NCBI GenBank assembly: GCA_937995785.1
Contig: CALKJQ010000145.1
Location: forward strand, 1 to 39,247
Length of the DNA: 39,247 nt
Source: Candidatus Kapaibacterium sp.
GTDB taxonomy: Bacteria > Bacteroidota > Ignavibacteria > Kapaibacteriales > UBA2268
Direction of reading: 5' to 3'
Below are positions 326-17,844 of this stretch, one piece after another (the stretch's first letter is position 1; every line of letters starts with the position of its first letter). A program made the position numbers and the translations under genes. The notes beneath the pieces were generated by a model that ran no database searches, was not told the DNA's origin, and saw only the letters and a program-made list of their open reading frames with translations.

Positions 326-1120
326 CTACTTTTTCCACTTCAACCAAATAGTTTTGTTAATATCAGTAGTTTCGGCGCCCATTTCGTATTTTCCAACTTC
401 TAGGTTATCTAACCAATCGAGGAATTTTGTAACATTAGCACCTGCAAAAATTGCTCCGTGTTGAGGCGCAATTACCTCGGGATTAATTGCTCTCACTCGG
501 CGTACCCAAGAGCGTAGATGTTGAGTAGAAGGCATCCATCTAAGATGGAATTTTTCCATATACTTAATATGAGATGCAAAATCATCAACATAAAGTGGAT
601 AATCTATTGGTATAAGTGCCGCACCTATATCGCCCGAGAAGAGAATTCGGGATTTTGGGTCATAAATCGAATAATTACCTGAAGAATGGCAATAATGAGC
701 GGGCACTGCAAAGACCGAGGACCCTTGATTGCCAATTTTTATTTCCATACCTTCGTCGGGAATACCATTTAAAGTAAAATTAACTCCCATTCCAAAATGA
801 CTTAGGAATCCTGTCCACAACCAGGGGCAGTAAATTTTTATATCGGGAATCAAATCTAACCACATTGCCAGAGAAGATGCTATATCGGGATCTTGGTGAG
901 ATGCAAATATTGTTTTGATTTGTTCTAAAGAAACATATTTTGTTATTTCGGAAAGCACTTGCGGAAAGATTTCAATTCCACCTGGATCCAAAATCATTGC
1001 TTCGCCATTGTTGATGATAACAAATTCATTTGTATCGATTACTTCGTTTTTCTTTTGGGGATCTCGCCCAAAGACGACCCATTTATGGTCACCGCTTTCG
1101 AATATTATTTCACTTTTCAT
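326..1120 (-). CDS. MBL-fold di-iron protein of the ODP / flavodiiron-like type (stand-alone, no flavodoxin domain)
   Basis: 264 aa. Putative metal ligands H75-x-D77-x-D79 (SHQDPDIAS), H145, D164 (FSGDIG), H221 (APQHG). The H145-x18-D164 spacing matches the flavodiiron-type arrangement. Confidence 0.8.
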   Translation of the reverse strand: MKSEIIFESGDHKWVVFGRDPQKKNEVIDTNEFVIINNGEAMILDPGGIEIFPQVLSEITKYVSLEQIKTIFASHQDPDIASSLAMWLDLIPDIKIYCPWLWTGFLSHFGMGVNFTLNGIPDEGMEIKIGNQGSSVFAVPAHYCHSSGNYSIYDPKSRILFSGDIGAALIPIDYPLYVDDFASHIKYMEKFHLRWMPSTQHLRSWVRRVRAINPEVIAPQHGAIFAGANVTKFLDWLDNLEVGKYEMGAETTDINKTIWLKWKK

Positions 1121-1129
1121 ATATTTACA

Positions 1130-1906
1130 CTAATTAGAAATTGACATAATTATATATTTAAGATAATTTTGAGCAGCTTTGATATCATTATTCATTTCGT
1201 CCAAATTGGTGTTTAATCGGTCAACAATATTTCGGATATTTGTAACTAATGCAATAAAGCTTTGCTGATCGGTGCTTAAGTATGATGATTCAATTAAAAT
1301 ATTCGACCCCATATAATTGGCAATAAAACCATTTCGTTTGAGATTTAATATTTTTTGCTCTGCTTTGCTCAACAAATCCAAGGATTTATTTAACATATCC
1401 ATTGATTTATAGGTAATATTGATATTTACTTTTGCAATAAGGTCGATGTTTTTCTTTTCTTCTTGATTGGTGCGCTCTAATAACTTATTTTTGGACAATT
1501 TGTTCAATTCTTGGGTATTTAATAAATCGAAATCAGTGGAACGGAAACTGCTTTTATTTGCAATTAAAATATCGTCCAACAAACTCGACAAAGAATTGGA
1601 ATAAAAAAGAAAACGGACTATCGAAATAGATGTTACTGTTAGCTGCCTTGCCAGATCGGACGAAACACTCTCCAAATCCTCTAACTCGGGTGCAATTTGT
1701 ATTGGCAAATCCGACAAAAATCCCGAAAGTGTTATCAATGACTGACCTTGGGCAGAACCAATTTTGCCAGCTTGAACAATTCCATTCACTGCCAATAATT
1801 TCAAGTCCAGACTGATACTTTTTAATGCACGACTAAGAACTAATATTTTGATACCTTTTTTGAAGACATTGGAGATGTCCTCTCTAAATTTATTAAGTTG
1901 ATTCAT
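1130..1906 (-). CDS. Soluble helical protein with degenerate methyl-accepting-chemotaxis signalling-tip-like motifs
   Basis: 258 aa, no obvious TM. LKSISLDLKLLAVNGIVQAGKIGSAQGQSL resembles the canonical MCP tip ([26 protein letters not shown]), with a second weaker copy at YMGSNILIESSYLSTDQQSFIALVTNIRNI. Confidence 0.6.
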   Translation of the reverse strand: MNQLNKFREDISNVFKKGIKILVLSRALKSISLDLKLLAVNGIVQAGKIGSAQGQSLITLSGFLSDLPIQIAPELEDLESVSSDLARQLTVTSISIVRFLFYSNSLSSLLDDILIANKSSFRSTDFDLLNTQELNKLSKNKLLERTNQEEKKNIDLIAKVNINITYKSMDMLNKSLDLLSKAEQKILNLKRNGFIANYMGSNILIESSYLSTDQQSFIALVTNIRNIVDRLNTNLDEMNNDIKAAQNYLKYIIMSISN

Positions 1907-2511: not shown

Positions 2512-3441
2512 TTAAAGTATTATTGAATCGAAATAAAGCGGTATAGCAGCTCCTATGCAAGGGGCATAGTGTTGTGCAGTCTTTATTGTGTAATCAACAT
2601 CTCTTTCTTCCAAATCCGATTTCAACATTCTGAAAGAACCAAGCCTCTTTCCTTCAGCACCAAAAATCATTGCTGTTTCCCAGCAATTAATAAATGTTTG
2701 CTGGTTAATATCCTTCCCGTAATAAAAAATACCTCCAGCCAAATCATCTACAATTTCATTCATTACTTTTTCGATTTGTGATTCGAGTGCTGTTGGTATT
2801 TGATCTGGTGTGGAATAATTTTCCAAACCAAAATAAACAAAATTTCCATTTGAAATTACACAAAAATCTATATAGTTATTTTGGACTGCCACTATTGCAG
2901 CATTTTTATTGTGTAGTTCGGGGTAATTATACATAAAGCAATTGGCAGCAGCTATTTGCGAGACATAAGGAAAATTGATTTCTTTTTCGTATTTCGAAAA
3001 ATATTGCTCGAACACACTCAAATCGTTGTTCTGATATACTACTGCAATTTGTTTATTAACTTTTGATTTATTCTCACTTAATTGGAACACTTGAATTTGA
3101 AAGTTGGAAATATTCAGATTCGGAAACGCTCTTTTCAATTCAATACCAATTAAATTCATAATTTCTTCTCGGGTAATACCTTTTTTGCTTGGCATTTGTG
3201 AAATTAATAGCGAATCGGCCGGAAAAATGATGCTAATGTTATCAAAATCGTTACCACATTTTTCAATTATTAAGTCAATTTCGTCGAATGCTTGGGTCTG
3301 TTCGTCCGTGTGGAGTGAGTCCAAATCAACGGGGGTATCGGTAGCATTAAGGTATTCTAATTTTAAACCATCTGGTGCGTTCAATATTTTTGTAATGTAA
3401 GTTCGGTCGGTATTTAAGAATATACTTAGTACTCTTTTCAT
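2512..3441 (-). CDS. Actin/Hsp70-fold PilM-like protein, DUF3822-like
   Basis: 309 aa. FPADSLLISQMPSKKGITREEIMNLIGIELKRAFPNL resembles the PilM/DUF3822 N-terminal region. Directly upstream of rsmD, a synteny I recall for DUF3822 in Bacteroidota. Confidence 0.55.
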   Translation of the reverse strand: MKRVLSIFLNTDRTYITKILNAPDGLKLEYLNATDTPVDLDSLHTDEQTQAFDEIDLIIEKCGNDFDNISIIFPADSLLISQMPSKKGITREEIMNLIGIELKRAFPNLNISNFQIQVFQLSENKSKVNKQIAVVYQNNDLSVFEQYFSKYEKEINFPYVSQIAAANCFMYNYPELHNKNAAIVAVQNNYIDFCVISNGNFVYFGLENYSTPDQIPTALESQIEKVMNEIVDDLAGGIFYYGKDINQQTFINCWETAMIFGAEGKRLGSFRMLKSDLEERDVDYTIKTAQHYAPCIGAAIPLYFDSIIL

Positions 3442-14281: not shown

Positions 14282-14364
14282 TTTATTGTTTGTATTAATA
14301 AAAATATTTCGTAATTTGACGATAAAGTTATTACAAAATTTTCCATAACTATTTGAGGTATTTT

Positions 14365-17300
14365 ATGAAAATTGGTATGAAATTAGGCATTGCTTTCGCA
14401 GCATTGACGGCTATTATTATCATTCTTGTTTATCTGGGTATAAGTACTGCGTCGACTTTGAACGATTCAGTTCAGATCCTCGCCAAAGATAGGTTCCCCA
14501 AAACTGTTTGGGCAAACAACATTATCGATGTAGTTAACGAAGGTGCTCTTTCACTCAGGAATGCTCTGTTGGCAAAAGATCCAAAAGAGCGAGATCAACA
14601 AATTGAAAGAACAAAAGCTACAACCCCAAAAGCAAGGTTAAATTTAGACTCATTAACTGCTACAATCAAATCCGAAAAAGGGATAAAGCTTTTAGCTGAG
14701 CTAAACGAAGTAAGAAATACTTATATTAAAGAAAGGAATATGCTTTTCGACTTAATTGCAGCCGATAGTAAAGATGATGCCGTAGATTTGCTTTTTGGGG
14801 ATTTTCGTAAAACTCAAAATGCCTACCTCGATAAGCTCAATGAAATTATATCATTCCAAGGCGAATTATTCAACGAATCTGCACTCGAAGCCGAAAACAC
14901 TTTTAATTCGCAGTTCAATCTACTTTTAATTTTGGGTGCAATTGCCTTAGTTCTTGCAATAACATTGTCGGTGATAGTTACCAAAGGAATCACCAAGCCT
15001 ATCAATACGGGCGTGAATGTTGCCGAAGAAATTGCACGAGGTAATACTAATGTAAATGTGGAGGTAACCACCAAAGACGAAACTGCAATATTGCTTAATG
15101 CAATGAAATCGATGGCAACCATAATCAAGAACATTATTACCGAAGTGAACACCGCTGCCCGAATGGCATCGGACGGAAAGTTGGATTACCGTGCAGATGC
15201 AACTAAATACCAAGGGGACTACAAAGAGTTGATGCTTGCTTTTAATAGTGCACTCGATGCTTTAATTAAACCAATTAACGTAACTGCCGAATATGTGGAT
15301 AGAATTTCGAAAGGCGATATGCCACCTAAAATTACAGATGAATACAAGGGCGATTTCAACGAAATTAAAAATAACTTGAATGGATGTATCGATGCAGTTA
15401 ATGCATTAATAAAGGATGCTAACTTTTTGGCAAAAGCCGCAGTCGAAGGCAAACTTGATACCCGAGCAGACGCATCCAAACACCAAGGCGATTTCCGTGC
15501 AATAGTTCAAGGCGTTAACGACACATTGGATGCAGTAATAGGACCATTGAATGTAGCCGCCGAATATGTGGATAGAATTTCGAAAGGCGATATGCCTCCA
15601 AAAATCACAAAAGAATACAATGGCGATTTCAACGAAATTAAAAATAACTTGAATGGATGTATCGATGCGATTAATGCATTGATAAAGGATGCTTTCGATT
15701 TATCTGATGCAGCAGTTGAAGGACGAATATTAACCAGAGCTGATTCAAGCAAGCACCAAGGTGACTTCCGTAAAATTATTGATGGGGTTAATGAAACAAT
15801 CAATTCGTTAGTTGGATTATTAGACAATATGCCAGCACCTTGTATGATTATTAATAAAGATTTTGAAGTGCTTTATATGAATAAAGCAGGAGCGGGATTA
15901 GACAATAAAACTGGTGAACAACTCTACAAGACTAGAACAAAGTGTTGGGATCATTTCAAGACAGGTGATTGCCATACTAACAACTGTGCATGTAAACAAG
16001 CAATGCAAATAAATGGAGAGGCAAAAAGTGCAACTGTAGCAAAACCAGGAATCCATACAATAGATATTGCATATACAGGTGTTCCAATCAAAAGTAGAAA
16101 AGGTGAAGTAATAGGTGCTTTTGAAGTTGTAATGGATCAAACAGCGATAAAGAATGCCGAAAGATTATCACAAAAAATAGCCGCCTATCAAGAAAAGGAA
16201 ACCGAAAAGGTAACTAACTATTTAATAGAAATTTCGAAGGGTAATGTATCAATCAACCCAGTTACAGAACCTGCAGATAGTGATACGGAAGATGCAAAAA
16301 GCAAATTCGACAAAATTAATGGTGCCATAAAACAAACAGTTGTTGCAATCAAAAATCTTATAGATGATTCCTTAATGTTGTCGCAAGCAGCAGCCGAAGG
16401 ACGATTGGATACCCGAGCAGATGCAGCCAAGCACCAAGGCGATTTCCGTAAAATCGTTGAAGGAGTTAACGAAACTTTGGATAATGTTATTGGACCATTG
16501 AATGTAGCCGCCGAATATGTGGATAGAATTGCCAAGGGCGACATACCTCCAAAAATTACGAAAGAATATAAGGGCGACTTTAATGAAATTAAAAATAATT
16601 TGAATATGTGTATTGATGCTGTGGATTTGTTAGTAAAAGATGCTAAATTGTTAGCCACAGCAGCAGCCGAAGGGCGATTGGATACCCGAGCAGATGCATC
16701 CAAGCACCAAGGCGATTTCCGAGCAATAGTAGAAGGTGTTAATTCGACATTGGATAATGTAATCGGTCCTATCAACGAAGCAAGCGAAGTGCTTTCGATA
16801 CTTGCTTCGGGCGATTTGAGGGCAAGGGTTAAAGGAGAATACAAAGGTGATTTATCTAAATTGAAGAACGATATAAATCAATTGGCAGACTCACTTGCGG
16901 CGTTGATTAACGAGGTGAATAACACCGTTAGCCAAGTGGCAAGTGCTGCAACCCAAATATCTGCTACTTCGGACTCGCTGGCTGCCGCCACTCAGGAACA
17001 AAGTGCCCAAACCGACGATGTAGCCTCGGCTGTCGAGGAAATGAGCCGAACAATCACCGAAAACGCAATGGGTGCAACCCGCACCGCCGAAGTTGCCCAA
17101 AAGAACGGCGAATTAGCAAACCAAGGTGGCTCGGTAGTTCAGCAAACCGTCCAAAAGATGAAAGATATAGCAAATGTAGTTGGAGAGTCTGCTTTAACAA
17201 TCCAAAAATTAGGTGAATCATCCAAACAAATCGGCGAAATTATTGCAGTTATCGACGATATAGCCGACCAAACCAACTTATTGGCACTAAACGCCGCAAT

Positions 17301-17844
17301 CGAAGCCGCTCGCGCTGGTGAGCAAGGTCGTGGATTCGCTGTTGTTGCCGACGAAGTTCGCAAACTTGCAGAACGCACAACCGATGCAACCAAGCAAATT
17401 GCAAATATGATTCGAGGAATTCAGAAAGAAACTGATATGGCTGTCGAAGCAATGAATCAGGGAAATCAAGAAGTTCAGAAAGGTATCGATTTAGCAGACC
17501 GTGCAGGGCAAGCATTGCGTGATATTTTGAACTCCACAAAAGAAGTACTAGAAATGATTAACCAAATTGCTGCCGCCAGCGAAGAGCAATCGGCAACAAG
17601 TGAGGAGATTTCGAAAAACGTTCTATCGATTTCCAAGGTAATTTCCGAATCGAGCCGCAGAGTAGAGGATGTTGCCCATGCAAGCGACGATATGGCTAAA
17701 CTAACCGAAAGATTGCGTAATTTAATGATGCAATTCAAAGTTGGCGGTGGCGATATGAACTTTGCTAATACAAACTACGACACTCGCACTTTGGGTGGCG
17801 GAGCCTCCAAACGACAATTAGCAAGTGGAAGCGTTTGGGATTAG
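14365..17844 (+). CDS. Methyl-accepting chemotaxis protein with four-helix sensor, about 11 HAMP-like modules, an internal Cys-rich PAS domain and an MCP signalling domain
   Basis: TM1 near the N-terminus and TM2 [21 protein letters not shown]; tandem modules ([28 protein letters not shown] alternating with [17 protein letters not shown]); canonical tip [43 protein letters not shown]. Start moved from TTG 14353 to ATG 14365 (AGG upstream). Confidence 0.95.
15286..16850 (+). repeat. Intragenic repeats encoding paired HAMP modules, period 273 nt (91 aa)
   Basis: GCCGAATATGTGGATAGAATT at 15286, 15559 and 16510. Equivalent Glu codons at 16513 and 16786. The 15286-15559 and 16513-16786 offsets are both 273 nt. 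Confidence 0.9.

Follow-up and report, generated by a model that had tools for sequence, protein, structure and literature searches.

The ODP gene and its neighbour

The window analysed here, a stretch of 39,247 nucleotides from Candidatus Kapaibacterium sp. (genome G000, a 2.25 Mb draft in 153 contigs), carries close to its first position two minus-strand genes that are the subject of this study. The gene transcribed first (1130-1906) encodes a protein of 258 aa, hereafter the partner, and its stop codon is separated by 9 nt from the start of the second gene (326-1120), which encodes a stand-alone oxygen-binding di-iron protein (ODP) of 264 aa. The original prediction, made from the letters of the sequence, had placed a small protein gene 9 nt upstream of an MBL-fold gene; both open reading frames are real and have the boundaries that it had given them. 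The window also holds an N-terminal fragment, with a TSPPYW motif, of a DNA methyltransferase gene that is cut by the end of the contig (2-142, minus strand), and a gene for a 309-aa protein that matches no family and is conserved beside rsmD in five genomes (2512-3441, minus strand).

The assignment of the 264-aa protein is straightforward. It matches the Pfam ODP family (PF19583) with 244.5 bits (E 1e-72; curated cut-off 27.2) and, in a phmmer search, the solved ODPs 6qrq and 6qnm (E about 5e-67), with which it aligns at the di-iron ligand set H-x-D/E-x-D, H, D, H. The predicted di-iron site comprises a first ligand cluster, H75-x-D77-x-D79 (884-898), followed by H145 (686-688), D164 (629-631) and H221 (458-460), all of them encoded on the minus strand and invariant in 11 orthologs of 58-80% identity. 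H145 and D164 are separated by 18 residues. Pfam detects a single domain in the protein and no C-terminal flavodoxin domain of the kind found in flavodiiron proteins; a separate flavodiiron protein with a flavodoxin domain is encoded elsewhere in the same genome (locus L002). A stand-alone MBL-fold protein with these six residues, an H-x18-D spacing and no flavodoxin domain is what had originally been described, and the description holds in every respect. Its author had also considered that the protein might cluster with ordinary hydrolases lacking the di-iron ligands; the Pfam score and the matches to the solved structures place it with the di-iron ODPs instead. Judged by its sequence, the protein is thus a safe member of the ODP family, and presumably binds Fe(II) and O2 at the predicted di-iron site, which would make it a candidate O2/Fe(II) sensor.

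Predicted fold of the partner protein

Contrary to the ODP, the partner is not recognizable when searched alone: it matched no Pfam family, no NCBIfam family and, in a single-sequence search of the PDB, no solved structure. Sub-threshold Pfam matches to HeLo, MA-Mit, DUF5424 and DUF948 were discarded as helical noise. The AlphaFold2 model of the partner, built with 15 homologs, is all-helical (pLDDT 90.5, pTM 0.81), with helices at residues 2-49, 52-116, 148-207 and 214-257. These are arranged as two hairpins, which turn near residues 50 and 210 and have both tips at one end of the molecule; the hairpins are joined at the opposite end by a poorly conserved linker of 31 residues (117-147; positions 1466-1558, minus strand). 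The same four-helix layout was predicted by AlphaFold (pLDDT 84) for a distant homolog from the genome G020, which is 22% identical to the window protein. In these models the partner looks like an MCP dimer built from one polypeptide, with two hairpins whose tips lie at the same end, that is, like a single-chain degenerate cytoplasmic chemoreceptor made of two fused helical hairpins. Foldseek searches of the PDB with the window partner and the G020 homolog returned generic helix bundles only, an expected outcome because the MCP chains in the structural library hold one hairpin each. A profile comparison between the N-terminal and C-terminal halves of the partner gave no detectable duplication signal. 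The window partner contains neither Cys nor His and is therefore unlikely to be a redox partner.

One possibility is that the partner is indeed MCP-like but forms a domain-swapped or two-chain dimer, a variant that would be compatible with the same signalling role. Subunit swapping occurs in engineered single-chain Tsr (PMC4692393), and the predictions made here cover the monomer only. Nevertheless, the monomer is modelled with high confidence, its 31-residue linker included, and the distant homolog from G020 models similarly. Such a dimer is possible, if rather unlikely, and a single chain that carries both hairpins is the arrangement retained in what follows.

MCP-like tips in both halves of the partner

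The similarity of the partner to MCPs was measured with a position profile derived from 21 distinct Kapaibacterial MCP tips, for which four window sizes were tried. With all four sizes, N41 and N202 were the two best positions of the partner family (ranks 1 and 2 of 217-245). Each of them precedes a predicted turn by about nine residues, like the conserved Asn of MCPs. Both motifs had been spotted by eye before the profile was applied, so the ranking measures the resemblance rather than discovers it. The first tip (residues 35-75; 1682-1804, minus strand; mean conservation about 0.9) is the clearer one: in the window protein, N41 scores 14.6, whereas the maximum among 128,715 positions of 339 background proteins is 8.7, in agreement with the original view that the N-terminus resembles an MCP signalling tip. 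The second tip (residues 191-232; 1211-1336, minus strand), weaker and overlooked in the original prediction, surrounds N202 in the C-terminal half; taken alone in the window protein, N202 has a score that is unexceptional against the same background positions. The order is reversed in the homolog from G020, whose second tip (VNMLIEAASLG) is stronger than the first.

Profile searches lead in the same direction. When the profile of the partner family was compared with all PDB sequences, the top match was the soluble Thermotoga chemoreceptor 3g67 (E 2e-5, or 2.9e-4 when the G020 homolog was left out of the profile), and the further natural matches were mostly MCPs, with tip matched to tip in alignments that run through the C-terminal half of the partner. 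The second tip could be aligned in this way to both Tm14 (3g67) and Tsr (1qu7). Designed helical bundles reach similar E-values (3e-4 to 6e-4) in the profile searches of the PDB, and the match of the C-terminal tip is therefore not decisive. In hhalign comparisons with Kapaibacterial MCPs, evaluated by heptad-preserving block shuffles, the N-terminal half was significant (p about 1/150 or less) and the score of the C-terminal half fell inside the range of the shuffles. Each half matches MCP tips at the place set by its predicted turn, though the halves do not match each other. The cut-off of the MCPsignal family (PF00015) is passed by none of the 16 partner members (best E 0.18). On sequence evidence, the case for an MCP-like tip is strong for the first tip and moderate for the second, and the partner is likely MCP-derived; it is kept outside PF00015 because its MCPsignal matches are below the cut-off, its halves do not match each other and the hhalign score of its C-terminal half lies within the range of shuffled sequences. 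The original prediction was thus correct in stating that the effector is not a canonical MCP, but its picture of a protein with one tip gives way to that of a predicted single-chain double hairpin.

Conservation in the partner family is highest at the tips (0.87-0.90 in the first; 0.90 in one arm of the second and 0.67 in its other arm), against values close to 0.5 over most of the remaining protein. The conservation of MCPs likewise peaks at the tip, which is the site of CheA/CheW binding. In the first tip, N41 and K48 occupy what we take to be the positions of Tsr N381 and R388, and Q45 presumably replaces E385; N41 is kept in 16/16 members and K48 in all 15 members that have a residue there. 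In the second tip, N202, E206 and F217 would correspond, under the same assumption, to Tsr N381, E385 and F396, with a Tyr in place of R388; E206 and F217 are kept in 16/16 members each and N202 in 14/16. Each tip therefore carries part of the canonical N, E, R contact set of MCPs (N and K in the first, N, E and F in the second), and since E385 has become Q in the first tip and R388 has become Y in the second, the binding of CheA/CheW is not assured.

This partial loss could be interpreted differently: the partner might be an MCP-derived, ODP-binding antagonist whose degraded tips enter or cap the arrays, so that CheA control would be lowered in an O2-dependent manner. The residues that each tip keeps (N, K and a Q for E385 in the N-terminal half; N, E, F and a Y for R388 in the C-terminal half) would suit such a role. 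The loss of ODP in Treponema denticola, which makes CheA more ordered in the arrays (PMC7666581), would suit it as well. Yet conservation in the partner peaks at the tips, which suggests that a binding surface has been preserved, and capping looks the same as normal docking at the level of sequence; an antagonist seems improbable. Still less probable is that the partner has no kinship with MCPs and is a four-helix bundle with affinity for ODP, in which case its likeness to MCPs would be convergent and its co-occurrence with CheA (see below) would reflect lifestyle. The sub-threshold Pfam match, the designed bundles that score close to MCPs and a Foldseek support limited to generic bundles could be read in this way, but the score of the N-terminal tip is above all background, both tips line up with the predicted turns, an unbiased profile search of the PDB puts MCPs ahead of every other natural family and the known ODPs pair with MCP homologs. 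A degenerate receptor derived from MCPs accordingly remains the preferred identity of the partner.

Distribution of the pair

Relatives of the partner are present in 15 of the 54 genomes of the Kapaibacteria family, and the family profile detected a diverged partner directly upstream of the ODP gene in an additional one (G020). ODP orthologs occur in 16 of these 54 genomes, namely in all 15 partner genomes and in G020, which is the only one of the other 39 to have it. The two genes are adjacent in 15 of the 16 genomes (14 of the 15 partner genomes and G020), always in the order partner then ODP and, where the gap was measured, -4 to 28 nt apart. Most other neighbours of the pair differ between genera. 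The exception is G014, where the partner and ODP genes are on different contigs and have other genes beside them. In G020, a gene near the pair (L103:5236-5802, minus strand) resembles, with a weak score below the cut-off, an iron-containing haem-oxygenase-like redox enzyme. The lack of conserved adjacency in any relative would have spoken against the original proposal of a functional pair; instead, the two genes keep their adjacency and order across many gene contexts.

Beyond the family, the partner is hardly found: a profile scan of 396 genomes of the phylum yielded only three weak matches to fragments (E about 1e-4 to 1e-3), and among 84,980 species genomes a pattern scan recovered 13 partner loci only, all from the Kapaibacterial group as far as titles show. 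The divergences of the partner and of ODP are correlated (Mantel r 0.925), a value that can also be obtained from shared ancestry alone. The joint distribution and the arrangement of the genes point to a genetic coupling between ODP and what its sequence suggests to be a cytoplasmic receptor without a sensor domain.

A probable link to the chemotaxis machinery

The original prediction had noted that no cheA or cheW gene lies in the window. This is correct, but the window does hold a full MCP gene, and G000 carries CheA, CheW, CheR, CheB, FliG and MCPs outside the pair. The MCP gene of the window, missed in the original prediction, is located about 12 kb from the pair (14353-17844, plus strand) and encodes a canonical full-length receptor in which Pfam recognizes a 4HB sensor module, a PAS domain, five HAMP_2 matches and MCPsignal. 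The genome has CheA proteins of two types, about 680 and 785 aa long. Elsewhere in G000, a gene for a CheA of 783 aa is followed by CheW, CheR and CheB genes (L047:1830-6679, minus strand). On the contig C89 of the same genome, the halves of a CheW flank an inserted CZB zinc-binding domain (L046:359-1168, minus strand), and this two-piece CheW recurs in about ten relatives.

CheA was found in 14 of the 15 partner genomes and in 18 of the 39 others (Fisher p 0.0017), and a longer CheA type of about 780-800 aa, assigned by frame length and not by phylogeny, in 12 of 15 versus 4 of 39 (p 2e-6). These tests ignore relatedness, and the contrasts within genera therefore weigh more. Three genomes (G004, G034 and G007, of genera g1, g15 and g4) whose congeners have the pair yielded no matches to the partner, ODP, CheA, CheW or MCPs. 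The joint loss of the pair and of CheA, CheW and MCPs in three genera fits a chemosensory role and, together with the conserved adjacency, supports the compact sensory module of two genes that had been proposed originally. CheW is present in all 12 partner genomes tested and in 10 of 17 others. CheA was not found in one partner genome (G017, 85% complete), in which CheW is present, and some relatives that bear CheA have no pair, for example G434 (76% complete). FliG occurs in 13 of the 15 partner genomes, G000 included, and the output of the system could therefore be flagellar.

It is very unlikely that the ODP is an O2- or NO-scavenging enzyme, with the partner as a structural or regulatory helper and no link to chemotaxis, for although its fold and ligands are common to flavodiiron reductases and a host enzyme of the pyruvate:ferredoxin oxidoreductase type fits a low-oxygen life, the window ODP has neither a flavodoxin domain nor a redox partner, the window partner lacks Cys and His, the genome already encodes a separate flavodiiron protein with flavodoxin (L002), and the loss of the pair coincides with the loss of chemotaxis in three genera.

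A candidate input to the chemosensory array

It thus seems fairly likely that the ODP reports O2/Fe(II) to CheA/CheW through a single-chain, degenerate cytoplasmic receptor. The ODP would bind Fe(II) and O2 at its di-iron site, change state and act on the partner encoded upstream. The partner would be a degenerate MCP signalling domain, with the hairpin pair of the usual homodimer fused into a single polypeptide, and its tips would dock into the CheA/CheW complexes encoded elsewhere in the genome. The O2/Fe(II) state would then alter CheA activity and, through it, flagellar switching. We infer the binding of metal and O2, the contact between ODP and partner, that between partner and CheA/CheW and the behavioural output. 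By this route, the pair probably enables the cell to orient its movement by oxygen or iron.

A more speculative extension, to which we give rather little credence, is that the partner is an asymmetric receptor whose tips diverged to hold different contact sets (N and K versus N, E and F), in which case one half might face the receptor trimer and the other CheA/CheW. If this were true, the partner and ODP would constitute a minimal O2/Fe(II) input to the array in which the roles of the subunits are genetically separated. Were the tips to divide the roles of the dimer subunits in this manner, the partner would be a simple tool to dissect them in the CheA/CheW core complex.

Comparison with known systems

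The coupling of an ODP to a cytoplasmic receptor without a sensor is already known from Treponema. In T. denticola, the ODP is coupled to an MCP homolog that has no transmembrane or sensing modules and modulates CheA, and the deletion of ODP changes the ordering of CheA in the arrays (PMC7666581). ODP binds iron and oxygen, and its interaction with cognate receptors depends on its conformation (reviewed in PMC6978683). Several types of operon that combine ODP and MCP genes have been described (TREND case study, PMC7319448). CheO of Campylobacter was considered for comparison and dropped, as its authors report no known sensory domain.

The Kapaibacterial ODP belongs to the same family as the T. 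denticola ODP (TDE2498) and that of Thermotoga maritima and shares their ligand set. As in T. denticola, where the receptor TDE2496 lacks a transmembrane or sensing module (PMC7666581), the gene of the presumed receptor is near the ODP gene; unlike TDE2496, the Kapaibacterial partner is below MCP recognition, has two predicted hairpins per chain and is known only from Kapaibacteria. The best solved match, Tm14 of T. maritima (3g67, 3g6b), is like the partner a soluble and short protein without a sensor domain, but its 213 aa form one hairpin per chain with a canonical tip, whereas each partner chain carries two degenerate tips. The flavodiiron proteins, such as that encoded at L002, have the MBL di-iron core of the window ODP together with a flavodoxin domain that the latter lacks.

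Engineered single-chain Tsr is functional when its linker has at least 22 residues, and natural single-chain soluble MCP signalling domains are known, with no role assigned (PMC4692393). Compared by their description, these natural proteins resemble the partner in joining two signalling hairpins in one soluble chain, and are set apart from it by its degenerate tips and by the link of its gene to an O2/Fe sensor. We found no description in the open-licence literature of a degenerate single-chain receptor tied to ODP or of a receptor so diverged. The pair would extend ODP-based sensing of O2 and iron to a group for which no earlier description was found, and would link a particular sensor to a single-chain MCP-like protein. 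The case further suggests that chemoreceptors can diverge beyond the reach of profile searches without losing their genetic partner, and the receptor counts derived from genomes may therefore be too low.
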